Origin: Desulfonatronovibrio hydrogenovorans DSM 9292
Lineage (GTDB): Bacteria; Desulfobacterota; Desulfovibrionia; Desulfovibrionales; Desulfonatronovibrionaceae
Direction: 5' to 3'
NCBI RefSeq assembly: GCF_000686525.1
Contig: NZ_JMKT01000009.1
Coordinates: 248,001-312,000 of the forward strand
Length of the DNA stretch: 64,000 bases
In this document: one piece after another, positions 5,469 through 47,591 of the stretch
How positions within the stretch are numbered: the stretch's first letter is position 1
Layout of the letters: every line of letters starts with the position of its first letter
Translations under genes and position numbers: made by a program
Notes under the pieces: model-generated
What the model was told of the DNA's origin: nothing
Databases searched by the model: none
What the model saw: the letters and a program-made list of their open reading frames with translations, nothing else

Positions 5469-7700
5469 TCAGACCATCCTCAGGCTGGTCACCCCCCTGA
5501 CCGGAAGCTCCACCACAAAAATGGTTCCCTGAGGCTTATTGCTCTTGACCCGGACATATCCACCATGATCAGCCACGATGGATTTGACAATGGCCAGACC
5601 CAATCCAGTACCTTCTTTTTTACTGGAATAATATGGTTCGAACATTCTGGCCCTTTCTTCAGAGCTGAGTCCTGGACCGTTATCTGCAACTTGAACAAAA
5701 ACCCTTTTAAGCTGCTCATCAAAATCAAGGTTTACCTCAACAAGACCGTTGGTTTGCCCTGTCAGGGCTTCTGAGGCATTAAGGAAAAGATTAAGAAAGA
5801 CTCTTTTCAGGGCATCCCGGTCAAAGCTGAATTCTGGCACTGGATTGATCTGCTTGAGATCCCAAGTGATTTTTCTGTGACTCTGGCTGAACATAGAGAC
5901 CACTTCCTCCAGAAGTGTATCCAGCCGGTCAAGCTTGAGCCTGACTTCAGGGAGTTTGGCAAAGGCAGAAAATTCTCTGACCATCTCCTGCATATTCTCA
6001 ACCTGCCTGACTATGAGCTGAGTGCTCTGGGTAAAGGAAGGGTCGGTTATCATGCTGCTGAATTTTTTTTCAAGGCGCTGGGCCGAAAGCTTGATGGGTG
6101 TCAGGGGATTTTTTATTTCATGGGCGATGCGTTTAGCCACCTCTCTCCAGGCAGCCAGGCGCTGCATTTTTTCCAGTTCGGTTATGTCTTCAAATACAGC
6201 CACAACACCGTAGTCGTCGCCTTTTTCAGCCTTCAAAATTACTGCATTGACCAGTATTTTGACCATCTTGCCCTGGACATCAATATCCAATTGCCTTTGC
6301 CATTGGGACTCAGGGAGGTCTGAAAGCTGGTTTAGAACCTCCTTGATCAGGGCTCCGTATTCCCCGCTAACCAGGTCCAGGGGATATCTTCCTATGACCT
6401 TGGTGCTGTCCAGTCCAAGGATAAACTCGGCAGCCTTGTTAACAGTAGTAATTTTCCCGTCCTGATCCACTGAAACCACTCCAGCTGTAATGTTATCCAG
6501 AACAGCCTGCATATATCTGCCTCTTGCTTCCAGCTCTTCGTTTTGGGCAGAAAACCTGAGATTGGCCTGGGTCAGGTTATTCTGGGTCTTTTCCAGATCC
6601 ATGGCCATCTTGTTAAAAGACCGTACCAGCAGGCCAAGCTCGTCGTCTGAATGATCCTCCAGCCGGACTTCCAGATCCCCCCTGGCGATTCTCTGAGTGC
6701 CTTCGGCCAAGGCCATGACCGGCTGGGATATTTCCCTGGACAGCTTGAATCCATACCAGATTGAACCGAAAATAATGACCAGGGTTATGACTCCCAAAAT
6801 GGTGTACAGAGCCACTTTTAAAGGATACTTGATGGTTTCAAGCTTTCGGTATTCATCAAGACCCTGGACGATTCCTTCCAGCCTGGCTAAAAGGCCAGGT
6901 TCAACAGTCTGCCCCACAACAAGAAATCCGGTCTTGGCGCTGTCAACAGGCATGACTCCCACGACCAGGTCCCCGGTATCGCTGGGCCACAACCCGGTCC
7001 AATAGATTGGACGCTCCAGAAGGTCGGACCAGGGAATGTTATCTTTAATCAGGGGCCAGTGACTGTCCCATTCATCATTTGCGAACCAGTTCTGCTCCCG
7101 CAGATTCGGAGTAATTACTCCCATAAGGGTCAGATCATACTCCCTGCTTTTTTTATCTTGCAGGAATGAATCCATTCCCCGTCCACCCCAGAGAAATTCC
7201 TGCTGTCTGATTTGATCCAGGGTCGATTCCGCCCTGACCTCAAGACCTTTTTTAACAGAGTTATAAAACAGCTGTCCGACCTCCAGGGCCTGGTTCATGG
7301 AACTGGCCACCTGTTCTTTGAACCAGTAGTCTACTGAGGTCTGGACGAATCTTACAGCAATAAAGAACATGAGCAGGGTCGGGATGATGGATAAAGAAAC
7401 AAAGGCCAGGACAAGACGGGTCCTGAGTTTTGACCCCAGCACCTTTCTGCGCCGCTCAACTATTAGTTTTAATATGTTTCTGACTACCAGAAACAGGACA
7501 AGGAGAAGAAGGATAAAGTTGAGGTTGAAGAAAGCCAGAAAGAGATAGGAATCCAATCCAAAATAGCGCAATTCAACCCAGGTCAGCATGCCAATAAGCC
7601 CGACAGCTCCCAGGACCAGCAGAAAGTCGCGGCGTCTTTTTTTTGTTTCCCTGATCTGGACTTCGGAAAGGGTTGTAGTAGTGTGCAGATTCATGGTCAA
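5469..7700 (-). CDS. NtrY-like membrane histidine kinase
   Basis: The 743-residue sensor kinase has three N-terminal membrane segments between about residues 25 and 115. A roughly 170-residue extracytoplasmic sensor region and a fourth membrane segment near 295-318 follow. A HAMP domain comes next (ISQPVMALAEGTQRIARGDL), then a PAS domain (MQAVLDNITAGVVSVDQDG), the HisKA box AHEIKNPLTPIKLSAQRL with the phospho-His, and HATPase motifs DNGPGLS and GTGLGLAIVKSI. This order and the HEIKNPLTPI box are typical of NtrY. The signal is unknown. The next gene encodes a receiver protein. The upstream gene is DUF4390, which often accompanies such kinases. Confidence 0.88.
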   Translation of the reverse strand: MTMNLHTTTTLSEVQIRETKKRRRDFLLVLGAVGLIGMLTWVELRYFGLDSYLFLAFFNLNFILLLLVLFLVVRNILKLIVERRRKVLGSKLRTRLVLAFVSLSIIPTLLMFFIAVRFVQTSVDYWFKEQVASSMNQALEVGQLFYNSVKKGLEVRAESTLDQIRQQEFLWGGRGMDSFLQDKKSREYDLTLMGVITPNLREQNWFANDEWDSHWPLIKDNIPWSDLLERPIYWTGLWPSDTGDLVVGVMPVDSAKTGFLVVGQTVEPGLLARLEGIVQGLDEYRKLETIKYPLKVALYTILGVITLVIIFGSIWYGFKLSREISQPVMALAEGTQRIARGDLEVRLEDHSDDELGLLVRSFNKMAMDLEKTQNNLTQANLRFSAQNEELEARGRYMQAVLDNITAGVVSVDQDGKITTVNKAAEFILGLDSTKVIGRYPLDLVSGEYGALIKEVLNQLSDLPESQWQRQLDIDVQGKMVKILVNAVILKAEKGDDYGVVAVFEDITELEKMQRLAAWREVAKRIAHEIKNPLTPIKLSAQRLEKKFSSMITDPSFTQSTQLIVRQVENMQEMVREFSAFAKLPEVRLKLDRLDTLLEEVVSMFSQSHRKITWDLKQINPVPEFSFDRDALKRVFLNLFLNASEALTGQTNGLVEVNLDFDEQLKRVFVQVADNGPGLSSEERARMFEPYYSSKKEGTGLGLAIVKSIVADHGGYVRVKSNKPQGTIFVVELPVRGVTSLRMV

Positions 7701-32779: not shown

Positions 32780-33152
32780 TTCAATACCTGAAATCTCTAT
32801 CCCTGGATATTTCACATCCAGGGCAAAAGCTTAAAAGTATTTTTCCTCTTTTGAGAAGAAAAGCCACAGCAGGGTCCAGGGGCCGTTTAAATGGCTCAGG
32901 ATCTATTCTAAGGGTCCTTTTCCAGTGCATCCTTAGGCGGCTTCCTGCCTAGTAGCCTTGAGCATATAGAGACTGATCTCCCTAACTCAACCTACCCTAT
33001 TTAAAAATCCATAGATTATCCCAATAAAAAACATAACTATCTATAGTTTTATTATATTGGACTATAGATTGGCTCTGGTTGTATTAGAAAAATATTTAGC
33101 AATATTTTTGATTACCATAGATAACTTGAACCATTCTAACTCAGGAGGCAAC
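32780..33152 (+). promoter_or_regulatory. pst leader region; hairpin and CATAGAT repeats
   Basis: This 373-bp gap follows yjbQ. CCCTGGAT/ATCCAGGG (32801-32808, 32816-32823) is a strong hairpin that may end yjbQ transcription, though no T-tract follows. Further on, CCATAGATTATC (33009), CTATAGATTG (33062) and CCATAGATAAC (33115) are direct copies, and an inverted copy lies at 33037-33046. These may be a PhoB-like or other operator set before pstS (inference). Confidence 0.5.
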
Positions 33153-33995
33153 ATGACCCTTAAAACCCGGCTTCAAATACCTTTATCTTTGATAGTTTTG
33201 TCATTTATACTTTTAATTTCAGGACCTGCCTGGGCTATATCCCTGGATGACTTTGATCAGTATCAGGGAACAATTGAAATCGCAGGAGGAACCGCTCATA
33301 TTCCTGTAATGAACGAAGCTGCCCAGCGCATTATGACTCGCAATTCCGGTATAAGGATTTCAGTTGCAGGGGGCGGAACCGGCATTGGAGTCCAAAAGGC
33401 GGGTGAAGGTCTGGTTGATATTGGCAATACAGGACGTGCCCTTTCTCAAGAAGAAATTAACCGCTTCGGACTGAAATCCTTTCCATTTGCCATTGATGGC
33501 GTAGCACCTGTTATTCACCCTTCCAATCCTGTTTCCGGTCTTAGTGCCGAACAAATCAGGGCTGTTTTTTCCGGTGAGATAACCAACTGGAAGGAAGTGG
33601 GAGGAAGGGATGCCCGTATAAACTTATACGGCAGGGAGGAAGCTAGCGGAACTCATGATGTTTTTTGGAAAAGACTCCTGGACAGGGGTGATATAGCCCT
33701 GACTGCCAACATAGTTCAGTCCAATGGTGCCATGAAAGTAGCTGTTTCTAATGATGCCAACTCGATTGGCTATATGAGCATCGGACATATCGACGATTCC
33801 ATCAAACCGTTGGAAGTTGACGGTGTACTGCCTTCCCAGGAAACTGCCATCGATGGCAGCTATTCTGTTGTCAGACTGCTTTACATGAACACCAAAGGGG
33901 ACCCCTCTACTTTGGTCAAGGCTTTCATTGACTATATCTATTCAGATGATGGAGCTGAAATAATTCGCGCAGCTGGATATATTCCAACAAAATAA
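33153..33995 (+). CDS. pstS: Phosphate ABC transporter substrate-binding protein PstS
   Basis: The periplasmic phosphate-binding protein of the Pst importer. The start at 33153 has AGGAGG and a signal peptide (MTLKTRLQIPLSLIVLSFIL, cleavage after AWA); an open frame upstream to 33057 lacks both. The mature part has AGGTAHIPVMNEAAQRIM, GGGTGIGVQKAGEGLVDIGN with phosphate-contact residues, and YGREEASGTHDVFWKR with the Arg/Ser/Gly/Thr phosphate loop. It is 280 residues, the short PstS type. It is first of pstSCAB; phoU is not in the cluster. Confidence 0.94.
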   Translation: MTLKTRLQIPLSLIVLSFILLISGPAWAISLDDFDQYQGTIEIAGGTAHIPVMNEAAQRIMTRNSGIRISVAGGGTGIGVQKAGEGLVDIGNTGRALSQEEINRFGLKSFPFAIDGVAPVIHPSNPVSGLSAEQIRAVFSGEITNWKEVGGRDARINLYGREEASGTHDVFWKRLLDRGDIALTANIVQSNGAMKVAVSNDANSIGYMSIGHIDDSIKPLEVDGVLPSQETAIDGSYSVVRLLYMNTKGDPSTLVKAFIDYIYSDDGAEIIRAAGYIPTK

Positions 33996-34007
33996 GAAGG
34001 ATTAACC

Positions 34008-34865
34008 TTGCAGAGCCTGGAGTTAAGAGAAAGGCTGATCAAGGCCACTTTGTTTGCCGCTACTATGGTCTCCGTAGTAGCGGCATTGTCAATCTTTGCC
34101 CTGCTGCTGTACTTTTCCCTTCCCTTGTTTTCCATTGAAGGTTTAAGAACGGTTATTTCCTGGGAGTGGAGACCTTTTAGTGGTCATTTCGGCATAATGC
34201 CCATGATGGTAGGATCCCTTCTACTGTCCACTGGAGCCTTGCTTATCGCCTGCCCTGCTGGCATAGGCATTTGTGCCTTTATCTCAGTCCTTGCTCCGGG
34301 TAGATTTGCCAGGCCGGTTTCAGCAATAGTCCATTATATGACCAGCATTCCAACGGTCATTTATGGCTTTGTCTCCATTTTTCTACTAGTCCCGTTAATC
34401 AGGGACTGGCTGGATAAAGGAACCGGACTCTCCTTGTTGACCGCAACAATAACTCTGAGTCTGCTAATTCTGCCAACAATAGTGCTGGTTTACTCAGCGT
34501 ATATAAGAGAAAAGGACAAAGAGCTAAAATTGACTGGTGCAGCCTTAGGTTTCTCAAAAAGCCAGTATTTTTTGTTTATCCTTTTTCCCCTGACTAAGAA
34601 AGGTCTAATTATAGCCAGTATACTCGGATTCGGTCGCGCAGTCGGGGATACCTTGATTTCTTTAATGCTCGCTGGAAACACTCCTTTGGTTCCCCAATCA
34701 ATCTTTGACTCGATAAGAACTTTGACCTCCCATATAGCGCTTGTAATAGCTACCGACAGCCAAAGTACTTTCTATCACTCCGTATTTGCTGCAGGCCTGC
34801 TTCTTTTCATTTTAATGACTGCAATTAACATCATAATCCGAAAGATTGGTAATAGCAGTCAATAA
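34008..34865 (+). CDS. pstC: Phosphate ABC transporter permease PstC
   Basis: The 285-residue inner-membrane protein has six membrane segments and the ABC-permease EAA-type loop (ELKLTGAALGFSKSQYFLF). MPMMVGSLLLSTGALLIACP and PTVIYGFVSIFLLVPLI are typical PstC stretches. The start is a TTG at 34008 with AAGGAT upstream, 12 bp after the pstS stop. It forms the channel with PstA. Confidence 0.92.
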   Translation: MQSLELRERLIKATLFAATMVSVVAALSIFALLLYFSLPLFSIEGLRTVISWEWRPFSGHFGIMPMMVGSLLLSTGALLIACPAGIGICAFISVLAPGRFARPVSAIVHYMTSIPTVIYGFVSIFLLVPLIRDWLDKGTGLSLLTATITLSLLILPTIVLVYSAYIREKDKELKLTGAALGFSKSQYFLFILFPLTKKGLIIASILGFGRAVGDTLISLMLAGNTPLVPQSIFDSIRTLTSHIALVIATDSQSTFYHSVFAAGLLLFILMTAINIIIRKIGNSSQ

Positions 34866-34933
34866 CCTTATGTCTTCAACCCATAATCAACAAAAAAACG
34901 ACATTGCACTTATCATGTTTTCTTTGTGATGAA

Positions 34934-35824
34934 ATGAAAAATATAATGCGCTTTTTTCTGGAAAAATTTTTTACCGCTTTTGCATGGCTGGCCACCTTTA
35001 CCGCAATGTCAGCCATATTCATCCTTATTGGATTTCTTGCATTAAGAGGTTACTCTACTATAAATTTGGAACTTTTTTTTGGTCAGGCCAACTGGCTCAA
35101 GGCCATCACAGGGGCACAGCCGGTATTCGGTGGCCTATGGCCAGCCATGGCCGGAACTATCGCTCTGGTCCTCCTGTCCTGTTCAATAGCTATCCCTGTT
35201 GGGGTTGCAGCTGGTATCTACCTGTCGGAGTACGCTTCTCCCAAAATACAGTCTGCCGCTGGTTTTGCTGTTGACCTCATGGCTGGGATCCCATCAATTG
35301 TTATGGGTCTTTTCGGATTCAGCATTATAATTCTCCTGAAAAACACTTTTCTACCCCAAGCCAGAACCTGCCTGATGCTGGCAGCAGTATGCATAGCTCT
35401 TTTGGTCATGCCCTATCTTATCCGCACCACCCAGAACTCCTTGCAAAGTATCTCTGAAGAAAGAAGACTGCTTGGCATAAGCTTGGGCTTTTCAACCTGG
35501 CAAAACATCAGACATATTCTGTTACCGTCTTCCAGTAAGGGAATACTTAGCGGCATCATACTGTCCATTGGCAGGGCTGCGGAAGATACCGCAGTCATCC
35601 TTCTGACCGGGGTTGTTTCTCAGGCCTTTGTGCCCAGGAGTCTTTGGGATAAGTTTGAGGCTATTCCTTTTAGGATCTATTATCTGGCTGCTGAGCATAG
35701 GTCTTCAGCTGAACTGGAACAGGCTTATGGTGCGGCCCTGGTTCTGCTTATCATAACAGGACTCCTTTTTATCCTGGCCTTTCTTTTTCAAAAAAGTATA
35801 GAAAAAAAATGGATCATAAGATGA
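34934..35824 (+). CDS. pstA: Phosphate ABC transporter permease PstA
   Basis: The 296-residue permease partner of PstC has six membrane segments. AGIYLSEYASPKIQSAAGFA and LMAGIPSIVMGLFGFSI are strongly PstA-like. The EAA loop is RRLLGISLGFSTWQNIRHIL, and GRAAEDTAVILLTG follows. I prefer the ATG at 34934; one at 34904 adds ten Cys-containing residues. Its TGA stop overlaps the pstB ATG (ATGA). Confidence 0.93.
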   Translation: MKNIMRFFLEKFFTAFAWLATFTAMSAIFILIGFLALRGYSTINLELFFGQANWLKAITGAQPVFGGLWPAMAGTIALVLLSCSIAIPVGVAAGIYLSEYASPKIQSAAGFAVDLMAGIPSIVMGLFGFSIIILLKNTFLPQARTCLMLAAVCIALLVMPYLIRTTQNSLQSISEERRLLGISLGFSTWQNIRHILLPSSSKGILSGIILSIGRAAEDTAVILLTGVVSQAFVPRSLWDKFEAIPFRIYYLAAEHRSSAELEQAYGAALVLLIITGLLFILAFLFQKSIEKKWIIR

Positions 35825-36588
35825 CTCAGCTGACAAGCCCTCAAGTGAGAACTAGAGACCTGTCTGTATCTTTCAACGGCAACCGTGCTTTAAAAAAAAT
35901 AAGTCTGGAGATTTTTCCAGGGCGCATAAATGTGGCAGTTGGACCGTCCGGTTCAGGCAAGACTACCTTTCTTCGCTCTCTGAACAGACTGAATGAATTC
36001 TATCCAGGATGCTCTACCAAAGGCGAGATCACTATCCAGCTAAGAGAAGGCCGGATTGAATGCAACAGTAATACCTTTCCACTTTCCCGACTTAGACAGA
36101 AAGTGGGCATGGTTTTTCAACATCCCAGTCTTCTTCCCTTTTCCATTGAAAAAAACCTTGCCTTACCCTTAAAGCTTACTCTTGGCCTGAACAAAATGGA
36201 GGTTAGTGAACGGATTGAGAGTTCACTGAAGGAAGTTGGGCTCTGGAAAGAAGTCAAGGATCGTCTGAATGCAGGAGCTCTTGAGCTTTCTGGAGGCCAG
36301 CAGCAAAGACTTTGTTTGGCCAGAGTAATCAGCTTGAAGCCTGAAGTAATTCTGCTTGATGAGCCTTCAGCTTCACTTGATTTCAGATCCACTGCAAAAA
36401 TTGAGGAAATGATCCTGAATCTAAAGAATAAATACACTGTACTGGCTGTCACGCACAGTCTGAGCCAGATGCAGCGTCTGGCAGACACTGTGTTTGTGTT
36501 TAAGGACGGTCTGGTGAGTTCAGTGATAGAAGAATTTGATCCACACCAGTCAAAGGAATGCCTGGATTTAATCCAAAGTGCGTTCTAA
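35821..36588 (+). CDS. pstB: Phosphate ABC transporter ATPase PstB
   Basis: This cytoplasmic ATPase drives phosphate uptake through PstCA. Walker A is GPSGSGKTTFLRSLNRLNE, the Q-loop is VGMVFQHPSLLPFSI, the ABC signature LSGGQQQRLCLARV, Walker B VILLDEPSASLD and the switch His in AVTHSLSQMQRLAD. The ATGA overlap with pstA decides the start at 35821; an ATG at 35809 would add four residues. It is about 255 residues, full length, and ends 3 bp from the convergent MetE-like gene. Confidence 0.93.
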   Translation: MTQLTSPQVRTRDLSVSFNGNRALKKISLEIFPGRINVAVGPSGSGKTTFLRSLNRLNEFYPGCSTKGEITIQLREGRIECNSNTFPLSRLRQKVGMVFQHPSLLPFSIEKNLALPLKLTLGLNKMEVSERIESSLKEVGLWKEVKDRLNAGALELSGGQQQRLCLARVISLKPEVILLDEPSASLDFRSTAKIEEMILNLKNKYTVLAVTHSLSQMQRLADTVFVFKDGLVSSVIEEFDPHQSKECLDLIQSAF

Positions 36589-36591
36589 GTA

Positions 36592-37767
36592 TCAGGAGTA
36601 TTCTTTTCGCAGTATGTCTGCAGCCTGAACAATGGACTTGATTTTGGCCGCAGCAACTTCTTCTACATTAACACAGCGGTTGGCAAAACATCCGAATCCG
36701 CAGTCAGTGTTCAGAAAGATCTGTTCCGGCTTGTAGTGCTCCAGGGCCATTCTGGTCTTGGCTACAATTTCCTCAGGGGTTTCTGCAGTACTGGTCCTGG
36801 GATTGACCACTCCAAGTCCCAGCTCTCTAAGCTTCTGGGTTCCAGGAACGTTTCCAGCCAAGGCTTGGCCCACGACCCTGATTTCACCTGCCCTGGGCGT
36901 GGCATACTCAAGAACATACTGGTCAACTTTCATCCTGGTCAGGGCAGGCAAAAGCGGAGTATAGTCTCCGGTCAGCAGGACATCCTCCCTGGTGCTCCAG
37001 TTGCCCCGGCAGATATGAATGCCGATGCGTGGCCCACTGACTCCATCAATGATCCTGTTCATAAGCTGGGCAGCGTATTCAAGTTCAACACCCACGTCAC
37101 GGCGGGTGGCCAGGGTGGCTCACATGAAGGTCCGTCGACCACACTCCTGGGACATGACTATTTCCGTAAGAACCGGCTCATCGAACTGGACAAACTCGCA
37201 CCCGGCCTCTGCCAGTTCTTTAAGTTCGCTGCGCAGGATGTGCACCACATCATCACCCATCTCAAACTGATCTTTGTAAATCTTGCCTGCGTATCTGGTA
37301 ACCCACATGGACCGAGACAGCAGATATGGTCCGGGCAATGTTATTTTTACCGGTTTCGGGGTGATGTTTTTGACAAACAGATAATCTTCCAGGGCCAGGG
37401 GCTCTCTTCTTTTCAGACGTCCAACACAGGTGGGATTGCGAATGGCTGATGCCGGGACATCCAAAGTGTCCAGCATTTCCTCAAATCCTGACTTATCCTC
37501 CACCTCATCAAGCATCTCAGCCAGTGACATGAGCCTGGTGCCTTCAACCTTGTCCGTGATAAAGGAGTAGAAGTTATCCCTTCTGTGCTCACCGTCCACC
37601 ACCATGTCCAGGCCTGCATCCTCCTGGATTCTTACAGTCCGTTCCACTTCCTGGTCGGCAATTGTGTTGAACTCCTGCCTGGATATCTTTTCCAGACGCC
37701 TGTCCCGGAGTGCCTTTAACATTTCTCTTGAACGCGGCCAGCTTCCAACCTGAGTAGTTGTAAACAC
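36592..37767 (-). CDS. Short MetE-like methyltransferase with in-frame TGA (candidate selenoprotein)
   Basis: Read through one TGA at 37120-37122, this is a 391-residue cobalamin-independent methionine-synthase-like protein (UROD/MetE C-terminal fold). FTTTQVGSWPRSREMLKAL opens it, DMVVDGEHRRDNFYSF and FVQFDEPVLTE follow, then RRTFM-TGA-ATLATR with the TGA as codon 216. Putative zinc ligands come after it: H251 and C253 (GIHICRGNW), E287 and C356 (NTDCGFGC). No other stop or frameshift is present and all motifs beyond the TGA are kept. The GTG start at 37767 lies 1 bp after the OsmC-fusion stop. Homologues, as far as I recall, have Cys at this position. The alternatives are a nonsense mutation or sequence error. 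Confidence 0.75.
37089..37108 (-). promoter_or_regulatory. SECIS-like hairpin after in-frame TGA
   Basis: On the minus strand CACCCGC and GCGUGGGUG-side bases pair to give a 7-bp stem with a 6-nt loop CGUGAC. The loop begins 18 nt after the TGA, within the 16-37-nt range for bacterial SECIS elements, and has G in its first two bases as that consensus asks. The stem includes one G-U pair. Confidence 0.5.
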
Positions 37768-37768
37768 T

Positions 37769-38530
37769 TTACACCACCAGCAGTTTGATATTGACTTGAG
37801 TTGCCTTGGCAAGGGTCACCGCAATAGGAGATCGCTTGACTGTCTGCTCCCAAACCTGGCGGACCTTGGTTTCATCGTCCATGGTTGATGCAAAGCATTT
37901 GACCTCAATACTGGAAAAGCCAGGATCACCATCTTCAAGCCCCAGATGAGCCAGAACATTAATCAGCCTGGCCCGCACGGTGATTTCAATATCATCAATT
38001 TCCAGACCGCTTTTGGAGCATTCAGTTGCATAGGCAGTACTCAAGGACGAGCCCAAAGCACCGAGCATGGCTTCCACTGCACAGGGATGAGTATCCTTTT
38101 CTTCAAAGCTGACTGGCTGGCCGAGTTTCCAGGAAAAATTGCGGCAATATACTGTACTTTCCAGATGACCTGTGGAGCGGGTCCTGACCCGCCATTCATA
38201 TTCCTTGGCCTGCTCCTTGTCCTTTTGTAGAGCTTCCTGTTCAGAGTCTTCTCCACTTTTGGGCTCTCCCCTGCGGATAAAATAGCGCACATAGCCCTTG
38301 CCTTCCAATTGACCCAAATAGTGGTGACCGGACATCCGGCACCATGGGGGCAAATCATCAGCAACAGTCGGCTCGCTGCTGCGCATTTCCAGAATCCCGC
38401 CTAGCTGGACCTTGAGCATATTTTCCCGGATCAGCAGGATCAGCCCTGATCCGCAGTCCAGATCCCCCCCATCAAACACCTGGTCTGGAGTTACTTGTTC
38501 AAGATTGGTTTGTCCTGATTGTGCTGTCAT
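37769..38530 (-). CDS. TusA-like/OsmC fusion protein
   Basis: The 253-residue protein joins an N-terminal TusA/SirA-like domain (FDGGDLDCGSGLILLIRENM and PPWCRMSGHHYLG) to a C-terminal OsmC/Ohr-like domain. The latter has HPCAVEAMLGALGSSLSTAY and the second Cys in ATECSKSGLEID. TusA proteins relay persulfide sulfur; OsmC proteins are thiol peroxidases. A fused pair could pass sulfur or reduce persulfides/peroxides (inference). The TusA Cys is in DCG rather than the classical CPxP. It sits between the DsrE-like gene and the MetE-like gene, with only 1 bp to the latter. Confidence 0.8.
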   Translation of the reverse strand: MTAQSGQTNLEQVTPDQVFDGGDLDCGSGLILLIRENMLKVQLGGILEMRSSEPTVADDLPPWCRMSGHHYLGQLEGKGYVRYFIRRGEPKSGEDSEQEALQKDKEQAKEYEWRVRTRSTGHLESTVYCRNFSWKLGQPVSFEEKDTHPCAVEAMLGALGSSLSTAYATECSKSGLEIDDIEITVRARLINVLAHLGLEDGDPGFSSIEVKCFASTMDDETKVRQVWEQTVKRSPIAVTLAKATQVNIKLLVV

Positions 38531-38656: not shown

Positions 38657-39022
38657 TCAATAACCAACGCAGGGAGAACCGGATGAAAGCCATTCCACCA
38701 GTGCTGCTCCGCCAGCTGGGGTAGCCCCATCAACCAGGTCGTTTTCCCCGAGTCCGCGTTTTTTCAGACAAGGAGTGCAAACGTATACCTTACCCCCTGC
38801 ATTGACAAATTTGCCAACCAGTTCTTTAAGCGGTGCAAAGGGCGCGCCCTCATCAATCTTTTCAGCTTCCCCTTTGACAGCGCAGTAAACACCGTCAGAG
38901 CTGAGAAAAACCATGGTTTCCTTTTCACTACCCTGAGCAGCGTTGGCTACCACAAATCCAAGAGTGGCCTTATCACCGTCAGTCCGGCAATGGGTAATAG
39001 TTACGCAGAATTTGTCAGCCAT
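38657..39022 (-). CDS. DsrE-family sulfur-relay protein
   Basis: The 121-residue protein has the DsrE/F fold pattern: FCVTITHCRTDGDKATLGFV, MVFLSSDGVYCAVKG and KVYVCTPCLKKRGLGENDLV. The Cys pair CTPC is where DsrE-type proteins bind persulfide. Members shuttle sulfur with TusA partners, and a TusA-like gene lies 3 bp upstream, a TusA-OsmC fusion downstream. It is not a dsrEFH operon member; no dsrF or dsrH is here. Confidence 0.8.
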   Translation of the reverse strand: MADKFCVTITHCRTDGDKATLGFVVANAAQGSEKETMVFLSSDGVYCAVKGEAEKIDEGAPFAPLKELVGKFVNAGGKVYVCTPCLKKRGLGENDLVDGATPAGGAALVEWLSSGSPCVGY

Positions 39023-39025
39023 GTT

Positions 39026-39283
39026 TCACTCCTTTTTTAGTTCAGGTTTGTATTCTACAAGGTAGTATGGATGGACCATGTCCAAAAGGGCATTTTTGGT
39101 CATCCTGCACCATGCGGGAAACTCAATCGGAGCTGCCGGATCTTTGGAAATAAGAAGAATCCTGTAACCCGGAGGCATTGGTTTCAGGTAAGTGTACAGA
39201 TTGATGATCACCCGGCCGCAGGTTTCATCTCCACCATCAAATTCATCATCAAATTCCCAATGATCAGGATAGGCTTCAGACAT
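39026..39283 (-). CDS. TusA-like sulfur-carrier protein
   Basis: The 85-residue protein resembles the N-terminal domain of the neighbouring OsmC fusion: FDDEFDGGDETCGRVIINLY and PAWCRMTKNALLDM. It is the size of TusA (about 80), with the sulfur-carrying Cys in TCG instead of CPxP. It is the first gene of the leftward sulfur cluster. Confidence 0.65.
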   Translation of the reverse strand: MSEAYPDHWEFDDEFDGGDETCGRVIINLYTYLKPMPPGYRILLISKDPAAPIEFPAWCRMTKNALLDMVHPYYLVEYKPELKKE

Positions 39284-39523: not shown

Positions 39524-40624
39524 TTAGTCTTCAGTGGGGCAAATGTTCAACGGTTGGATGAGTTGGCTTTCAACAGTTTTCCGGACCCAGTCCTTGCCCC
39601 TAGTCTGTCCCTGGAGATGCCAGGCTGTGAGCTTTTGAGCCAGTTCAACAGCTCTTGTCAGACCATGTTGACGGATCCTTTCCAGCTCGTTCCAGTCTGA
39701 ACCGGAGCTTATCAATTCAAAGGCCCGGATGAGTTCTGGAAACAAAGCCCGGGAAAGAGGCTGGATCAGGCAGAGATAAAAACCCATTGAAGCCTTTTTT
39801 TCATGCCTGATGATATGCGCCAAAAGTCCCTGTTCATGGGTGTCTGCCAGGAGATCCTTGACCGCCCTGGCAACTCTTTCCACCAGGGTGTTGGCATGGA
39901 GAGCCACAAGCTCTTGCCAGATCTGCAGGTCGAATTCCTGCTGGAGTGCTTCTCCCAATTCATGGTGCACCCAGGTATCTGACTCATCCAGGGCCATCTT
40001 CCACAGGGTTTTCCGATGACTTTTGGATACGTCCATCATGTTGTCCACATCCAGATCATACTGGGCAAGAGCAAACCTCAAGGCTTCCAGGGTAGAGGCT
40101 TTTTTTTCAATAATAACATCCCACAGGTAAGCAGCCATGACCTGGGGCCTGATGATGATATGGTCACCCTGGCGCATGGCCGGAGATGCAAACAGGTCCC
40201 TGGCCAGCTCCTTGTCCAGAATGTGGACATGCATATTTTTGATGGTCTTACTTTCTAAAACAGTAGCCAGAAAAAAAGTTGGTTTCATGCCGGTGGCATA
40301 CCCGGCTCCGTAGAACAGTCCGCTCTCTGAAATCCTTGCGTTGATCAGATCAGTATCAAAAGGATCAAGGTCCTGCCCGTTGATCCGGATGGCATTCAGA
40401 TCCTTGCGGTTGGATCTCTCCCACTTGTCCTCCCTCATCTCCACCCAGGAAAGAAGATCCTGGTAGTCAGGCTCATCCCAGGGTTCAAGGCCTTTTTCCC
40501 ATTTGTAGTAATCTCTCATCCGGAGCAGAAAACCGCACAGGGAGAATACACCGCCGAATCGAGCATCAGAGATAAGGCAGTTTAAAAGGACCTGATCTTT
40601 AATGTTGTCCGAGTCACAGTCCAT
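39524..40624 (-). CDS. Unknown protein in hydrogenase cluster
   Basis: The 366-residue cytoplasmic protein has no signal, membrane segment or metal motif. Stretches like GVFSLCGFLLRMRDYYKWEK and TWVHHELGEALQQEFDLQIW are well-formed helices. It resembles an uncharacterised family limited to sulfate reducers and relatives, which I cannot name with certainty. It lies 178 bp after the hynA-specific protease gene on the same strand, so a hydrogenase-linked role is possible but unproven. Confidence 0.7.
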   Translation of the reverse strand: MDCDSDNIKDQVLLNCLISDARFGGVFSLCGFLLRMRDYYKWEKGLEPWDEPDYQDLLSWVEMREDKWERSNRKDLNAIRINGQDLDPFDTDLINARISESGLFYGAGYATGMKPTFFLATVLESKTIKNMHVHILDKELARDLFASPAMRQGDHIIIRPQVMAAYLWDVIIEKKASTLEALRFALAQYDLDVDNMMDVSKSHRKTLWKMALDESDTWVHHELGEALQQEFDLQIWQELVALHANTLVERVARAVKDLLADTHEQGLLAHIIRHEKKASMGFYLCLIQPLSRALFPELIRAFELISSGSDWNELERIRQHGLTRAVELAQKLTAWHLQGQTRGKDWVRKTVESQLIQPLNICPTED

Positions 40625-40802: not shown

Positions 40803-41294
40803 TTATGAAGTCTGGTCTTTTGACTGATACGTTCCACCAGCCAGCTCGACCTCACTAAGGACCATCTCAGTCAATTCATCAATTTTAACCTGAACCTCAG
40901 GAGTCAGCTTTTCGCTCCAGGGAGCAAATTCCTTGGGCTCAACCCCGATAATCACGCATTCTGGACGGCTGCCAATGAGCTCACAATGGGTCAGGGTTTC
41001 CACCAGGTCAGCCTGATGCATGGAGTCTTTAAAGGCCATGCTTTTTCTGAGATCATCTCCAATCAGCCGGTAAACCGTACCTGGAGGCATTTTATTCAGG
41101 ACAGCGTCCACAACCACAAGATAATCACACTCCATGATATAGTCCATGAGCCGGATGCCCAGGGTGCCCCCGTCCATGACCCGGACATTGTCTGAAAATT
41201 CGAACTCAGACTCCAGCTTTTCAACAACCCGGACCCCTACCCCTTCATCTCCAAGAAGGATGTTTCCTACCCCTAGAACCAAAATTTTCTTCAT
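40803..41294 (-). CDS. hynC: Hydrogenase maturation endopeptidase (HyaD/HynC type)
   Basis: It removes the C-terminal tail of the [NiFe] large subunit after Ni insertion. The start MKKILVLGVGNILLGDEGVG is canonical for the family, which is why I prefer 41294 over an ATG at 41306. The nickel-sensing residues are Glu in GDEGVGV, Asp in VVVDAVL and His in ALTHCELIG-like context near 99. At 163 residues it is normal in size. It follows hynA, whose tail (VIDPKTNEVYKFKAS) is its expected substrate. Confidence 0.88.
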   Translation of the reverse strand: MKKILVLGVGNILLGDEGVGVRVVEKLESEFEFSDNVRVMDGGTLGIRLMDYIMECDYLVVVDAVLNKMPPGTVYRLIGDDLRKSMAFKDSMHQADLVETLTHCELIGSRPECVIIGVEPKEFAPWSEKLTPEVQVKIDELTEMVLSEVELAGGTYQSKDQTS

Positions 41295-41376
41295 TCCACT
41301 ATCCATAACAGATTAAGGTTTATCCGGAATAACAGCCTACTGCAGCTGAGAACAATAAACAGCTTGCCAAAAAGCA

Positions 41377-41451
41377 CAAAGGACACAGGGCTCTGAGGGG
41401 TCAGGCATCAGTACCTGTGCCGCCCCCTCTCAGTAACCACTGCGTCCTTTG
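41377..41451 (-). repeat. Large imperfect hairpin after hynA
   Basis: CAAAGGAC (41377-41384) pairs with GTCCTTTG (41444-41451), and CTGAGGGG inside pairs with CCCTCTCAG. It lies between hynA and its protease gene. No T-tract follows, so it may stabilise or partly end the hynBA message. Confidence 0.55.
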
Positions 41452-41500
41452 TAGCAGCAAGTAGAATTGTTCTGATTTTCAAAATTGTGGCCAGCTGAAC

Positions 41501-43201
41501 CTAGCTGGCCTTGAACTTATAAACCTCGTTGGTTTTCGGGTCAATGACATGCACTCCGCAGGCAATGCATGGATCAAAAGAATGAATGGTACGCAGGATC
41601 TCCACCGGTCTTTTGGGATCAGCCACTGGAGTTCCGATAAGTGCCTGTTCAACCGGGGCAAGTATTCCCTTGGCACATCTGGGACCAAAGTTCCAGGTGG
41701 TGGGAACAACCAGCTGAAAATTTTCAATCTTGCCGTCTTTGATTTTAATCCAGTGGCTGAGGCCACCCCTTGGTGCGTCTGCGAACCCGACACCTTCAGC
41801 CTCATCCGGCATCTCCCAGTCCTGGGCGATTTTGGTGTCTCCAGCAGCCACATTATCTTCAAGCTCTCTTAGCCAGTCAGCAGTTTTTTGGGCAATTACC
41901 AAGGCCTTGACTCCCCTGGCTGCTGTCCGGCCCAGGGTTGAGTGCAGGGCTTCAGGCCCAACCCCTAAGTGTCTGAGCACTGTGTCCACAGCATTGACAA
42001 TTTCCGGCTGACCTTTGGCATAGGCCACCAGCACTGAAGCCAGAGGGCCAACTTCCATGGCCTGATCATTGTACCTGGGAGCCTTGGACCATGAATAGCG
42101 TTCCTTGTCGTCATAACTGGTGTACTTAGGTTCAGTCACACCTTCATAGGGATGCTTGGCTTCTTTACCTTCATACCAGCTGGCTGCCACATGTTCATAA
42201 ATTGCACCCGGATCAACAGTATCCACCCTGGACAGATTTCTGTTCAAAATCACTCCAGGAGGAATCCACCTGCTTTCAAGGTCCTGTTCATTTTTAGGGA
42301 ATTCCCCGAAGCTCATGTAATTATGGGTTCCACCGATCCCTGCCCAATCCTTATAAAATGAGGCCACAGCCAGGAGGTCGGGAATATAAACGTCTTCGAT
42401 AAAATCCCTTGTTTCTTTTAACAACTCTGCAAACTGGTCAATTCGTTCCTTTCTCAGCCCATCATAACAGGTTACCCCGCCTACAATAGTAAACTGGGTA
42501 TGGGGATTTTTTGAGCCATAGATGGCCATCATTCTGGCTGCCTTGACCTGGAGACGCAGAGCTTCCAGGTAGTGGGCCGTGGCAATCAGGTTGACTTCTG
42601 GTGGCAGGTAATAGGCTGGATGCTCATCCAGAAAGTAAGCGTTGGTAAAAGGTCCGAGCTGCCCGCTCTCCACGAACTTGGTCAGCCTTTCCTGGACTGC
42701 TTTCAACTCCTGAGGAGTTGTTTTTCGAGGAGATATATCATTGGCAATCTGGGCTGCTTTCCTGGGATCTGCCTTGAGGGAACTGGTCACATCCACCCAG
42801 TCCAGGGCATGGAGCACGTAGAAGTGGACCACATGGTCATGCATGAACTGGGAAGCCATGACCAGGTTCCGGATTATTCTGGCATTCTCTGGAATCTCCA
42901 CTCCAACCGCATTATCAACACACCTTGTGGAAGCAAGGGCATGGACATAAGTACAGACTCCACAGGCCCTCTGTGTGATATGCTGGGCATCTCTTGGATC
43001 CCGACCCTTCAGAATGATCTCCAGGCCCCGGAAGAGCTGTGAACTGGACCAGGCATTCTTGACCCGTCCGTTCTCAACCTCCACCTCCATTTTCAAGTGG
43101 CCTTCTATCCTGGTAACCGGATCAATGATAATGGGTCCGGAAAAATCGCTTTTGGGGGTCACCGGAATCACCGGTGCCGCCTGGGGTTTACAACCGGCCA
43201 T
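41501..43201 (-). CDS. hynA: Periplasmic [NiFe] hydrogenase large subunit
   Basis: The 566-residue subunit carries the Ni-Fe active site for H2 oxidation, exported by Tat on the small subunit. MAGCKPQAAPVIPVTPKSDF and IIDPVTRIEGHLKMEVEVEN open it. L1 is RACGVCTYVHALASTRCVDN near 84 and L2 is FDPCIACGVH near the end, giving the four Ni ligands, all Cys (so not NiFeSe). The 15-residue tail after GVH is removed on maturation. It is very like Desulfovibrio HynA. A 201-bp spacer separates it from hynB. Confidence 0.95.
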   Translation of the reverse strand: MAGCKPQAAPVIPVTPKSDFSGPIIIDPVTRIEGHLKMEVEVENGRVKNAWSSSQLFRGLEIILKGRDPRDAQHITQRACGVCTYVHALASTRCVDNAVGVEIPENARIIRNLVMASQFMHDHVVHFYVLHALDWVDVTSSLKADPRKAAQIANDISPRKTTPQELKAVQERLTKFVESGQLGPFTNAYFLDEHPAYYLPPEVNLIATAHYLEALRLQVKAARMMAIYGSKNPHTQFTIVGGVTCYDGLRKERIDQFAELLKETRDFIEDVYIPDLLAVASFYKDWAGIGGTHNYMSFGEFPKNEQDLESRWIPPGVILNRNLSRVDTVDPGAIYEHVAASWYEGKEAKHPYEGVTEPKYTSYDDKERYSWSKAPRYNDQAMEVGPLASVLVAYAKGQPEIVNAVDTVLRHLGVGPEALHSTLGRTAARGVKALVIAQKTADWLRELEDNVAAGDTKIAQDWEMPDEAEGVGFADAPRGGLSHWIKIKDGKIENFQLVVPTTWNFGPRCAKGILAPVEQALIGTPVADPKRPVEILRTIHSFDPCIACGVHVIDPKTNEVYKFKAS

Positions 43202-43233
43202 ATATAATTCCTCCTGATTTCATAAAATTTTTA

Positions 43234-43292
43234 TTACAGAGAGGGCAGAGGCAGTTGAGTACAGCTGGCCTGACCTTGTTGCTCCTCTGTAA
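43234..43292 (-). repeat. Inverted repeat between hynB and hynA
   Basis: TTACAGAG (43234-43241) and CTCTGTAA (43285-43292) form a perfect 8-bp stem around 43 bases. It lies in the unusually long gap between the two subunit genes and could affect mRNA processing or stability. Confidence 0.4.
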
Positions 43293-43402
43293 CTGCAGAT
43301 TATTCTCTGTGGTGAACTTTCTATTCAAACCATTGTTCTTGCAGACCGGAAACCTAAGCAGCAGATTCTGACCAGTCTGACCCTTGAACTGCTTAAAAGG
43401 GT

Positions 43403-44353
43403 TTACAGGTCATAAAAAGGACTCATTGTATCCCAGAAGTCCGGCTCGCTGCAGCCTATACAATGATGTCCGGCCTCAACCGGCCAGTTGGTCTGATTAA
43501 ACTTGATCTTGGGACAATTGTTATAGGTCCAGGGCCCGCGGCAGCCCAGCTCATACAAACAATATCCCTTTTTGGCTTCTTCAGAATCAAAGGAATAGGC
43601 GAATTCTCCATTAATGTAGTGATCAAGTCGTTCGCACAATTCATGGACTGAAGTTCCATAAAACATGGTTGGCCGCATGAGCGAATCAACCTGAGGCATT
43701 CCTTCTGTCAGAAGATGGACAACGGTTCCCACAAAATTGTAAGGATTGGGTGGACATCCAGCAATGTTAATGGCCTTGATGCCTTTATCCTTTAAAAAGT
43801 CATTGACGCCCTTGGCTCCGGTGGGATTTGGAGCTGCAGCCTGTACCCCGCCAAAGTTGGCACAGGCACCAATGGCGATGGTGGCCTGGGCTTTAGGGAT
43901 GATTTCATTGGCCATTTGGAGCATGGTGTGTCCGCCAACCTTGCCGTAAATCCCGTTTTCCTTGGTTGGAATAGCACCCTCCACAACGCAGATAAATCCT
44001 TGGGGAGCGTTTATTGCCTGCTCCAGGGCCTCTTCAGCCGCATCTCCGGCAGCAGCCATGATGGTTTCGTGATAATCCATGGAAATGGTGTCCAGGATAA
44101 GATCATCTACATAAGGCTGAATTGTCCGCAGCACCGACTCGGAACAGCCTGTGCATTCGGCAAAATGAAGATAAACCACTGAGGGCCTTCTTGGAGCTGT
44201 CAAGGCCTGGGCAACCTTGGGTGCAAAGGTTGCATCCATTCCCATAACAGCAGCCACAGTGGCACAGAACTTCATGAAATCACGCCTGGAGACACCATTT
44301 TGCTCCAGTCTCTTTTCTCCGCCTTCTTTACCAAGGCCTACACTGAATTTCAT
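43403..44353 (-). CDS. hynB: Periplasmic [NiFe] hydrogenase small subunit
   Basis: The 316-residue electron-transfer subunit has a Tat signal ([20 protein letters not shown]) with cleavage near AQA. The Fe-S Cys set is complete: [25 protein letters not shown] and [12 protein letters not shown] for the proximal cluster, and C-terminal [17 protein letters not shown] and [13 protein letters not shown] for the distal ones. It passes electrons to periplasmic cytochrome c3. AAGGAGGGG precedes the ATG. It follows the protease gene by 33 bp. Confidence 0.94.
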
Positions 44354-44386
44354 ACCCCCCTCCTTATTAAATGGTAATCAACTGCA

Positions 44387-44887
44387 TTATGTCGATCCAA
44401 CCTGGCAAAAAGGCTGGCAGGACATTTTCTCACCCTTTATTCTTGCTGCTATTGAGGCCACTGCCCTGTCCACTCCATTCTCAACAACCTCGGTCATAAC
44501 ATTTGTAAATTCTTCAATTTTTTCAACTTCAATCAGTAGAATGTATATCTCCCCGGGCATTTGATCCGGAAAAAGTTCATATCCGGTTTTCAGGGTAGCT
44601 CCCAGAGTTATTGCATGGGAATTGGATAATGAGTGGGAAGAAAAAATATCGTCAACAGTTACCTCAACCACGGTCCCAGGCTGGTAACCCAGTTTACAGG
44701 CGTCAACTACAAAGGCCCGGTCATATCCCATGAGCCGGTCCAGGACATCCAGGCCTACAGTGTACAGCTCCTGAATATCCACTGAGAGGTCCATACTGGA
44801 AAGTCTCTGAACAACTTCAAGACCAGCCCTGTCATCCTGAAGAAGAGGGTTGCCTATGCCTAACGCGATGGTTTTACTGCAATTCAT
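44387..44887 (-). CDS. Second hydrogenase maturation endopeptidase
   Basis: This 166-residue protein belongs to the HyaD/HycI family: LGIGNPLLQDDRAGLEVVQR holds the first metal acid (Asp for the usual Glu) and RAFVVDACKLG the second. The metal His is in SNSHAITLG. Lying 150 bp after mvhA and 33 bp before hynB, it most likely processes MvhA, while the gene at 40803 processes HynA (inference). An in-frame TTG at 44890 is an alternative start. Confidence 0.85.
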   Translation of the reverse strand: MNCSKTIALGIGNPLLQDDRAGLEVVQRLSSMDLSVDIQELYTVGLDVLDRLMGYDRAFVVDACKLGYQPGTVVEVTVDDIFSSHSLSNSHAITLGATLKTGYELFPDQMPGEIYILLIEVEKIEEFTNVMTEVVENGVDRAVASIAARIKGEKMSCQPFCQVGST

Positions 44888-44964
44888 CAAAGTGCCGCCA
44901 TGATATGGTTATTGGATTCAATGAAATTATTATTCTGGATTGTTCTCAAAGCTTGATAGCTTCG

Positions 44965-45027
44965 TCCTGGAATCGCGGAGAAGCATGAAGCGATCAAAGG
45001 AATATCCATGCTCTCCGCATTCCGGGA
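44965..45027 (-). repeat. Long hairpin downstream of mvhA
   Basis: The arms 44965-44987 and 45007-45027 contain TCC, GGAAT, GCGGAGA and GCATG and their complements, about 19 paired bases with single-base bulges, around a 19-nt loop. It starts 17 bp after the mvhA stop. No T-tract is visible, so it may be an mRNA-stabilising or processing site. Confidence 0.55.
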
Positions 45028-45044
45028 CTGATTATATTAAGGGT

Positions 45045-46511
45045 TTAGAAGTTTTTCATTTGCCTTAGGATCTCACCGTCACTCTTGTAGATATTCACCT
45101 CAACTGGAAGCTGTCCAGCTGTGACCGTGTGGGTGGCACAGGCCAGACACAGGTCATACGGTCTGAAGGCCATTTCCACATGATTGAGAAGTCCTTCGGA
45201 AACATTTCCATCCTTGATGAAATGCTTGGCTGCAGTCTTGACAGCCAGATTTATGGGCGCATTGTTGTGGGTAGTTGATACGATGAGGTTTGCATTTTGA
45301 ACTATACCGTTATCATCTGTGATATAGTGATGAATCAGGGTTCCCCGGTTGGCTTCGATGATCCCGACACCTTCACCAGTGCAGGAAGTAGGCTTGTTCC
45401 AGGTGTCTGAACCAGTAATTTCAGGATCTCTGGAAAGCTCAAGACACTTTTCAGCTGCAGCCAGTATTTCAATGGCCCTGGCCCAATGGTAACCGAGGAT
45501 GTAATGAACTGGCTTTAATCCAAAAGTGTTATGAAACTTTTCAAAATGTTCCTGAGCCAGGGGAGTGCTCATGGAGTCTACCACGTTCATCCTGGCCAAA
45601 GGGCCCACGCAATAGATATTGGTGTCTGGTCCGCTCTTAATGCCGTCCCAGCTGCCAAGTTTCTTGTTATAAGGGAATTTAAGATAAGACCATGGTAGCA
45701 CTCTTTCAGAGATAAAATCAAGGTACTCTTTACCGGTGAAAGTACCGACAAGATCACCTTTGGCGTCTATGACTTTCTGGGTACCGTCGTATAGGGTGAA
45801 TCTGTTCTGTTCATCCACAGAAGCCATGTAGCCCACCTCGACCTTGTACATATCCCCTGTGACCAGTTCCATGTACTTGGGATTTTTAAGGACAACATCC
45901 TCAAAGACCTGAAGGGTCAGCTTACCCAGTTCAACCAACTCTTCTGACCATTTCTCAATCTGGGCCCTTTCCTCCTCACTCAGCCTCTTGGACCACCCAC
46001 CAGGCAGTGCAGCAACAGGATGATTGGGTTTGCCTCCAAGAATCTCAAATATTTTGACTGCCAGACTGCGTTTTTGAAGGACCATCCTTCCTGTCTCAAC
46101 ACCTACAGCGTTGATGAGTCCGATAAGATTGCGTTCAGCAGGAGAGGCATCCGGACCGACCACAAAATCCGGGAAACCAAGGGCATACAGAATTGCCGTG
46201 TGGTCTTCTACGGTATGGGCGCTGTAGAAGAGTTCCCGTAGCTTCCTGCCCGTGGGCGGAGGAGTTACCCCGTACACGTTATCAGATGCTTTCATGGAAC
46301 ACAGAAAATGCACTGCCCTGCACACTCCGCAGACCGTGGATACGGTCCTTGGCACCTCTTCAATGGGCATGCCCTGCAGGAATTTTTCATACCCGCGAAA
46401 TTCGACTGTCTGGAAAAAGGCGTCGTCAACATTGCCGCTTTCATCAAGGAAAATGGCGATCTTGCCGTGCCCCTCCAGGCGGGTCATGGGATTGATTTCT
46501 ATTTTTTTCAC
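45045..46511 (-). CDS. mvhA: Cytoplasmic [NiFe] hydrogenase large subunit (MvhA/F420-non-reducing type)
   Basis: The large subunit of the hydrogenase that feeds HdrABC. L1 is STVCGVCRAVHFLCSMKASD and L2 is YDLCLACATH near the end, with four Cys ligands; the tail TVTAGQLPVEVNIYKSDG is the maturation peptide. I prefer the GTG at 46511 (488 residues) because AAAGGAG lies 8 bp upstream and the family core (KKIEINPMTRLEGHGK) begins at once. An ATG at 46583 would add 24 residues, also with a fair GAGG site. It is last of hdrA-C-B-mvhD-G-A. Confidence 0.92.
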   Translation of the reverse strand: MKKIEINPMTRLEGHGKIAIFLDESGNVDDAFFQTVEFRGYEKFLQGMPIEEVPRTVSTVCGVCRAVHFLCSMKASDNVYGVTPPPTGRKLRELFYSAHTVEDHTAILYALGFPDFVVGPDASPAERNLIGLINAVGVETGRMVLQKRSLAVKIFEILGGKPNHPVAALPGGWSKRLSEEERAQIEKWSEELVELGKLTLQVFEDVVLKNPKYMELVTGDMYKVEVGYMASVDEQNRFTLYDGTQKVIDAKGDLVGTFTGKEYLDFISERVLPWSYLKFPYNKKLGSWDGIKSGPDTNIYCVGPLARMNVVDSMSTPLAQEHFEKFHNTFGLKPVHYILGYHWARAIEILAAAEKCLELSRDPEITGSDTWNKPTSCTGEGVGIIEANRGTLIHHYITDDNGIVQNANLIVSTTHNNAPINLAVKTAAKHFIKDGNVSEGLLNHVEMAFRPYDLCLACATHTVTAGQLPVEVNIYKSDGEILRQMKNF

Positions 46512-46610
46512 TTTGCTTTCTCCTTTGATTTGTCCTCGACACATCCCTACTGCTTTTTTCAGCAGTTCTGTCACTTTACTCATGACTACCCCTCACGGGT
46601 TAAAAGAAGA

Positions 46611-47591
46611 TCATTTGCCCGGGGTCAACTTCTGGTTAAGTATTCCTGCCGAATATGAGTACCGATAGCAGAATTTAGCCATATCATTAAATTTTTTAAC
46701 AAATTCCTCCGCTGTTTCATCATCCTTCAAGCTGGAAGTAATGGTTGAAACACACCTTGCCCCGTAATCTCTGACACCGGGAATAGGACCTCCACAGCCA
46801 CGGCATGGTATATTCACATTCAGACAGGATGCACCGCAATCACCCTGAGTGACAGGACCAAAACAGATATATCCCTGCTGAAGAAGACACTTATCTTCAT
46901 CCGGGCGGCCGTCCACAGTCCTGAACACCTCTCCGATAGGCAGTCTTTTCTGATCATGGTCAGCTGGATTGCGTTTGCAAATGTCACAAACAGCTTTGCC
47001 CGAGGTGAGCCAAGATCCCTTGGCAGGCAGGTTTCCACTGACAATGGCCTGAACCAGCTGGGCAATGAAGTCATGGTGAGGAGGACAACCGCCTACAAAA
47101 TAGTCAACCTCAACCAGCTGATCTATAGTACTGACCCGGTTGGTGAAAGCCGGAAGGGTCAAATCATACTTTCCTTCCCAGGTGCATTCGGGCTGAGGAT
47201 AAATCCCGTCAGGGTTGTCAGTGCTGAAGGTGTCTTTATAAGCCTGACTGAACAGCTCCTCCTGGGAGTGACAGTCGCCCAGGGCTGCAATGCCGCCAAG
47301 GCTTGCACAGGCGCCAAAAGCTACCAGAGTCTTGGATTTCTGCCTCAGAACTTTAACAGTATGTTCGTTTTCCGTGTTTCTGATCATTCCATCAACAAAA
47401 GCCAGGTCAATGTACCCGTCTTCCATGGCTTCCAGGTCTTTGTACTTGACGTCAGCTACTGTGGGCGCCCAGAAAACCACATCCAAATGCCCCAGGGCGT
47501 CCAGTAATTTCTCTGACATGTCCACCAAAGCCATTTCACAGCCAGCACAACCGCCGGCCAGCAGAAAACCGAATTTTATTTTTTCAGCCAT
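46611..47591 (-). CDS. mvhG: Cytoplasmic hydrogenase small subunit MvhG-like
   Basis: The 326-residue protein carries Fe-S clusters between MvhA and MvhD. LLAGGCAGCEMALVDMSEKL, GACASLGGIAALGDCHSQEE and CPPHHDFIAQLVQAIVSGNL form the proximal cluster. Later Cys are in AVCDICKRNP, GDCGASCLNVNIPCRGCGGP. It has no Tat signal, so it is cytoplasmic. It directly follows mvhD with no gap. Confidence 0.92.
   Translation of the reverse strand: MAEKIKFGFLLAGGCAGCEMALVDMSEKLLDALGHLDVVFWAPTVADVKYKDLEAMEDGYIDLAFVDGMIRNTENEHTVKVLRQKSKTLVAFGACASLGGIAALGDCHSQEELFSQAYKDTFSTDNPDGIYPQPECTWEGKYDLTLPAFTNRVSTIDQLVEVDYFVGGCPPHHDFIAQLVQAIVSGNLPAKGSWLTSGKAVCDICKRNPADHDQKRLPIGEVFRTVDGRPDEDKCLLQQGYICFGPVTQGDCGASCLNVNIPCRGCGGPIPGVRDYGARCVSTITSSLKDDETAEEFVKKFNDMAKFCYRYSYSAGILNQKLTPGK

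Follow-up and report, generated by a model that had tools for sequence, protein, structure and literature searches.

We conclude that a gene of Desulfonatronovibrio hydrogenovorans DSM 9292, located on the minus strand at 36592..37767 of the analysed stretch of 64,000 nucleotides (the window), encodes a genuine selenoprotein in which UGA codon 216 (37120..37122, minus strand) is read as selenocysteine (Sec); on the comparative sequence evidence we put the probability of this at about 97%. The product, 391 aa from a GTG start with the TGA read through, is a MetE-like protein (PF01717), hereafter Sec-MetE. This assignment draws on the Pfam match and on homologues in which this codon is likewise TGA, and that of the Sec codon on the frame and the homologue column. 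Sec-MetE appears to add a selenoprotein family, found across several phyla, in the MetE TIM barrel fold, for which none has been recorded. Ordinary ORF calling splits the gene in two, with the result that the zinc site is lost from annotations.

Evidence that TGA 216 encodes selenocysteine

The reading frame runs from the GTG at 37767 to a terminal stop at 36592, with the TGA at 37122-37120 as its sole internal stop, and thus bears out the initial annotation, which had described a frame open on either side of a single TGA at codon 216. Beyond being open, the part downstream of the TGA is constrained by purifying selection just as the part upstream is: compared with homologue L010, substitutions per codon position were 0.144/0.037/0.488 before the TGA and 0.109/0.080/0.486 after it, the third position dominating on both sides. 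A convergent set of pstS-pstC-pstA-pstB type phosphate transporter genes lies on the plus strand (window 33057-36588), its stop and that of the Sec-MetE gene being a few bases apart.

The column of codon 216 is TGA in 39 distinct homologous sequences (38 aligned, plus L097). By their record titles, in which labels of metagenome-assembled genomes (MAGs) can be wrong, these come from Desulfovibrionales, other Desulfobacterota, Anaerolineales, Acidobacteria, Armatimonadetes and Bacteroidota, with one further record each from Rhodospirillales and a Betaproteobacteria MAG. The culturable strains Desulfopila aestuarii DSM 18488 and Fundidesulfovibrio agrisoli are among the bearers. Seventeen more distant homologues (11 from Poribacteria, 1 from Dehalococcoidia and 5 from Desulfobacterota) have Cys at this position within the same FMC motif, as do, in addition, copies on Paracoccus plasmids. 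Two homologues more distant still than the Cys forms (L065 and L066, matching at 3001-4149 on the plus strand with 42-44% identity) have Arg, which indicates that the residue is dispensable for some activities of the wider family; no TusA, DsrE or OsmC neighbours were found beside these two, which may be a sister group, possibly showing an older function. Inside the family, the column holds TGA or Cys and no random residue.

The D. hydrogenovorans genome encodes the Sec machinery that such a reading requires, with matches for tRNA-Sec (82 bits), SelB (403 bits), SelA (618 bits) and SelD (377 bits); these genes are located elsewhere, away from the Sec-MetE operon, and the selD gene carries an in-frame TGA of its own. 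We found tRNA-Sec in all 18 TGA-form genomes tested within the order and in 6/6 further members of the phylum. Of 12 other genomes or records with homologues, 11 had it as well, the twelfth (G644) giving no match. The Poribacteria and Dehalococcoidia genomes with the Cys form have tRNA-Sec too. As 87% of the genomes of the phylum (343 of 395) carry tRNA-Sec, its co-occurrence with the gene is uninformative at that level, and we dropped it as a special signal there.

A SECIS-like hairpin (37089..37108, minus strand) follows the TGA, and its description in the initial annotation proved exact: it begins 12 nt after the TGA (an 11-nt spacer) and has a 7-bp stem (arms 37108-37102 and 37095-37089, with one G-U pair) and a hexaloop, CGTGAC (37101-37096), whose second base is G, the loop lying 18 nt after the TGA. 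The hairpin is part of the minimum free energy structure. Folded as a single sequence, it does no better than chance (z -1.2, with 24/200 shuffles as good), and the evidence for its relevance is therefore comparative. In TGA forms the stem codons are almost fixed at synonymous sites (ACC in 37/38, CGC in 35/38 and GGT in 34/38), with free variation in the codons for Ala, Thr and Leu that separate the TGA from the stem. Across the 38-sequence alignment 94.4% of cells are paired, compared with 31-53% after sliding one arm, and compensatory change is seen at two of the stem pairs. The covariation score was reached by none of 500 shuffles, a test which is inflated by relatedness, whereas the slid-arm control preserves it. 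RNAalifold recovered the inner five pairs unaided. Several stem pairs are broken in two Bacteroidota sequences, and no such hairpin was found in the Poribacteria Cys forms.

Two other readings of the TGA must be considered. A mechanical ORF list gives two ORFs here, as would be expected if the TGA were a real stop or a mistake, that is, if we were dealing with a truncated pseudogene, a sequencing error or two separate genes; this is the least credible reading, since the TGA is shared by independent genomes from several phyla (which excludes sequencing error), constraint is equal on both sides of it, Cys replaces it at the same column, and the zinc ligands all lie downstream of it. We regard pseudogene, sequencing error and split gene as ruled out by these comparative data. 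Scarcely more credible is the decoding of the TGA as some other residue, by a suppressor tRNA or by context-dependent insertion of Trp or Cys. Nothing specific speaks for it; the hairpin is kept with the TGA and missing in the Poribacteria Cys forms, the replacements are Cys and not Trp, and practically all bearers of the gene have the Sec machinery. The selenocysteine interpretation is strongly supported, none of the computational refutation tests that were run having gone against it. We suggest that UGA 216 would be decoded as Sec by the host SelA, SelB, SelD and tRNA-Sec, the hairpin acting as a bacterial SECIS element.

A MetE-type barrel with a selenocysteine loop

The read-through product matches PF01717 (Meth_synt_2) with 104.3 bits, against a gathering score of 21, and its sequence matches in the PDB are cobalamin-independent methionine synthases. 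The best NCBIfam match is the methionine synthase model PRK04326 (170.7 bits, below the cut-off of 406). The full-length MetE model TIGR01371 gives 91.7 bits against a cut-off of 929.95, the protein having 391 aa against about 750 aa, and Sec-MetE scores under the cut-offs of all NCBIfam methionine-synthase models. AlphaFold predicts a confident barrel (pLDDT 87, pTM 0.90), to which the closest PDB structures are MetE of T. maritima (1xpg) and the Shewanella enzyme 3rpd, which has been named MesD (PMC7857596).

In E. coli MetE the zinc ligands are H641, C643, E665 and C726, and the homocysteine residues are S433, E484 and D599 (PMC7857596). As the initial annotation had anticipated, the zinc ligands of Sec-MetE all lie beyond the TGA: they are H251, C253, E287 and C356, invariant in 42 homologues, of which H251-I-C253 (37009..37017, minus strand, coordinates from codon numbers) forms an HxC motif corresponding to H641/C643 of E. 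coli MetE. The homocysteine-residue counterparts S9, E60 and D196 are also invariant in the 42-sequence alignment.

Sec216, in the motif TFMU(A/G), is not among the zinc ligands and is found 20 residues past D196 and 35 ahead of H251. Against the MetE encoded in this genome, the residues surrounding Sec are aligned to a gap of 14 residues; the Sec loop is therefore specific to the Sec-MetE family. The predicted order of elements (strand 192-196, helix 199-209, loop 210-224, helix 225-240, strand 247-252) places this loop in a strand-to-helix connection, that is, on what would be the catalytic face of the TIM barrel, although the model is at its least certain in the loop itself (block pLDDT about 54-65). 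The suggestion made initially from the sequence, that Sec could take part in methyl transfer, is plausible. The D. hydrogenovorans genome also encodes a separate, full-length canonical MetE (C16:148377, 766 aa), and so the Sec-MetE gene may be dispensable for making methionine.

An operon with TusA-type sulfur carriers

The Sec-MetE gene is the last of a four-gene unit on the minus strand. The probable first gene encodes a TusA-like sulfur carrier (39026..39283, 85 aa), and is followed by genes for a DsrE-family sulfur carrier (38657..39022, 121 aa), like the first a conserved neighbour, and for a TusA-OsmC fusion protein (37769..38530, 253 aa), which adjoins Sec-MetE in most TGA loci and whose TAA stop is 1 base ahead of the GTG start of the Sec-MetE gene. 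The same gene order is seen at nearly all TGA loci with enough flanking sequence, the exceptions being L052 and L053, and related genes are found beside Cys forms in Poribacteria (L058, L061 and L062) and Desulfobacterota (L098-L102). Rhodaneses adjoin the locus in L046, L053, L104 and L105. The Cys form is itself fused to a TusA domain in Desulfobacterota (L106:4591-6123 and L107:5325-6923) and in Paracoccus. The operon partners are identified through guilt by association; together, fusion and operon give good reason to think that a TusA-type carrier is the working partner of the enzyme.

Upstream of the operon, the window contains a gene for a DUF6866/Sfum_1244 family protein of unknown function (39524-40624, minus strand), with no match in the other loci compared, whose flanks are short, and genes for two sets of subunits of nickel-dependent hydrogenases, together with a maturation protease (40803-47591, minus strand).

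Sec-machinery genes beside the gene set

In four groups of loci, Sec-machinery genes adjoin the gene set. In L049, selD immediately precedes the operon. Downstream of Sec-MetE lie selA and selB in L053, and selA in L052. After the gene for the Paracoccus TusA-MetE protein, a Cys form, come selA and a thioredoxin reductase gene, with tRNA-Sec on the same plasmid at a distance of some 8 kb, beyond ordinary SDR genes, an AraC regulator and an IS element. In L103 a second tRNA-Sec (6802-6897, minus strand, 65.6 bits) is immediately upstream of TusA, the better-scoring tRNA-Sec of that genome (G526) being on a different contig; a neighbouring AIR-synthase-type protein in L103 was considered as SelD and proved to be PurM.

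On Paracoccus ferrooxidans plasmid pFER4 (L109, 4881-11571) there are genes for TusA, DsrE, two unannotated proteins, TusA-MetE with Cys, selA and trxB. The set looks like an operon for sulfur/selenium, and a gene for a SufS-type cysteine desulfurase lies on the opposite strand. One unannotated protein is a membrane protein of 168 aa; the other, of 522 aa, has by eye an apparent signal peptide and a C-terminal membrane segment; neither gave a family match.

Where the Sec form is found beside sel genes, a client may possibly just sit with its machinery. The link to selA in Paracoccus is not explained by the status of a Sec client, since the enzyme there has Cys, and this case gives a hint that the enzyme acts in selenium metabolism itself.

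Possible functions of Sec-MetE

We propose that Sec-MetE is probably a zinc-dependent thiol/selenol alkyl-transferase served by a relay of sulfane sulfur (or selenium). What the analysis shows is the conserved UGA with its SECIS and machinery, the fold, the ligands, the operon and the fusions; the reaction, its substrate and direction and the role of Sec we infer. The enzyme would be a stand-alone MetE catalytic barrel, with the zinc site (H, C, E, C) and the homocysteine residues, in which zinc would activate a thiol or selenol, and an alkyl group, most likely methyl, would be moved on or off it. Sec216, in the loop that separates the homocysteine Asp from the zinc His, could be the nucleophile meeting relay-borne sulfane sulfur or selenium, or alternatively could be the acceptor of the alkyl group. 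TusA, DsrE and TusA-OsmC of the operon would form the relay carrying the sulfane sulfur or selenium to Sec216, a partnership which in relatives is covalent, as a TusA-MetE fusion.

Two other functions deserve weighing, and the likelihoods that we attach to alkyl transfer, to a role in selenium metabolism and to methionine synthesis are those of readings which overlap in part. The gene neighbourhoods described above (selD in L049, selA/selB in L053 and selA in L052, the selA, thioredoxin reductase and tRNA-Sec genes near the Paracoccus Cys form, and the tRNA-Sec upstream of TusA in L103), together with the presence of tRNA-Sec in genomes of Poribacteria and Dehalococcoidia with the Cys form, would suit an enzyme that demethylates or activates a selenium compound, such as methylselenol or selenomethionine, with TusA, DsrE and rhodanese carriers moving selenium towards SelD. 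We consider this unlikely as the main purpose, given that the clustering of machinery genes with a client selenoprotein gene may account for the Sec-form cases, that the sel genes of D. hydrogenovorans are elsewhere in the genome, and that tRNA-Sec co-occurrence in this phylum is uninformative. A little less likely again is a core methionine synthase, like MesA-D, which happens to contain Sec and methylates homocysteine from a corrinoid protein donor. In favour of this, Sec-MetE keeps every zinc and homocysteine residue, lacks the folate-binding N-terminal domain and has a methionine synthase model, PRK04326, as its top NCBIfam match; but its score is under every methionine-synthase cut-off, the genome also encodes a full-length canonical MetE, and the Sec loop, the sulfur-relay operon and the TusA fusions would be left unexplained. 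Returning to the alkyl-transferase that we favour, we tentatively suggest, as a broader idea that we think less probable than the activity itself, that Sec-MetE may found a chalcogen-transfer module, in which sulfur or selenium from TusA-type carriers is used when a C-S or C-Se bond is made or broken.

Relation to known proteins

MetE (PF01717; TIGR01371) is the top structural and Pfam match of Sec-MetE, which shares with it the barrel fold (TM-score about 0.75 to 1xpg) and the zinc and homocysteine residues; Sec-MetE differs from MetE in having no N-terminal folate domain, an identity of about 21% and a score far under the curated cut-off, a Sec-bearing insert of about 14 residues and a sulfur-carrier operon. 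Like the core methionine synthases MesA, MesB, MesC and MesD, it is a stand-alone catalytic domain of similar length with all functional residues kept, although neither Sec nor TusA is mentioned for those enzymes (PMC7857596); the solved MesD structure, 3rpd, is 20% identical to Sec-MetE, in a sequence comparison which covered MesD only. With known prokaryotic selenoprotein families it shares the UGA, the hairpin directly downstream and the Cys homologues (PMC13188914), but many of those have UxxC-type redox motifs, in contrast to TFMU(A/G) in a TIM barrel. TusA, DsrE and rhodanese are also partners in the TusA/DsrE relay of sulfane sulfur, which is here tied, by operon and fusion, to a MetE-type enzyme.

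A 2026 inventory of 119 prokaryotic selenoprotein families, which by its own statement integrates earlier literature, lists OsmC-like, DsrE-like, rhodanese and arsenite-methyltransferase selenoproteins (PMC13188914); PF01717/MetE is not in it, nor is Sec-MetE among the new families that were reported in 2025 with deep-Sep (PMC12013277), and NCBIfam 20.0 has no seleno model matching it. We found no paper on a MetE selenoprotein or a TusA-OsmC-MetE operon in a search of the main texts of open-access papers, and prior notice is possible.

If there is a chalcogen-transfer module of the kind suggested, it would link one-carbon chemistry to the delivery of sulfane sulfur or selenium, possibly feeding SelD. 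The TusA fusion and the sel-gene neighbours make the channelling of sulfane sulfur or selenium in anaerobes a testable idea, and Sec-MetE opens the question of whether selenium serves in alkyl transfer, as opposed to redox chemistry.
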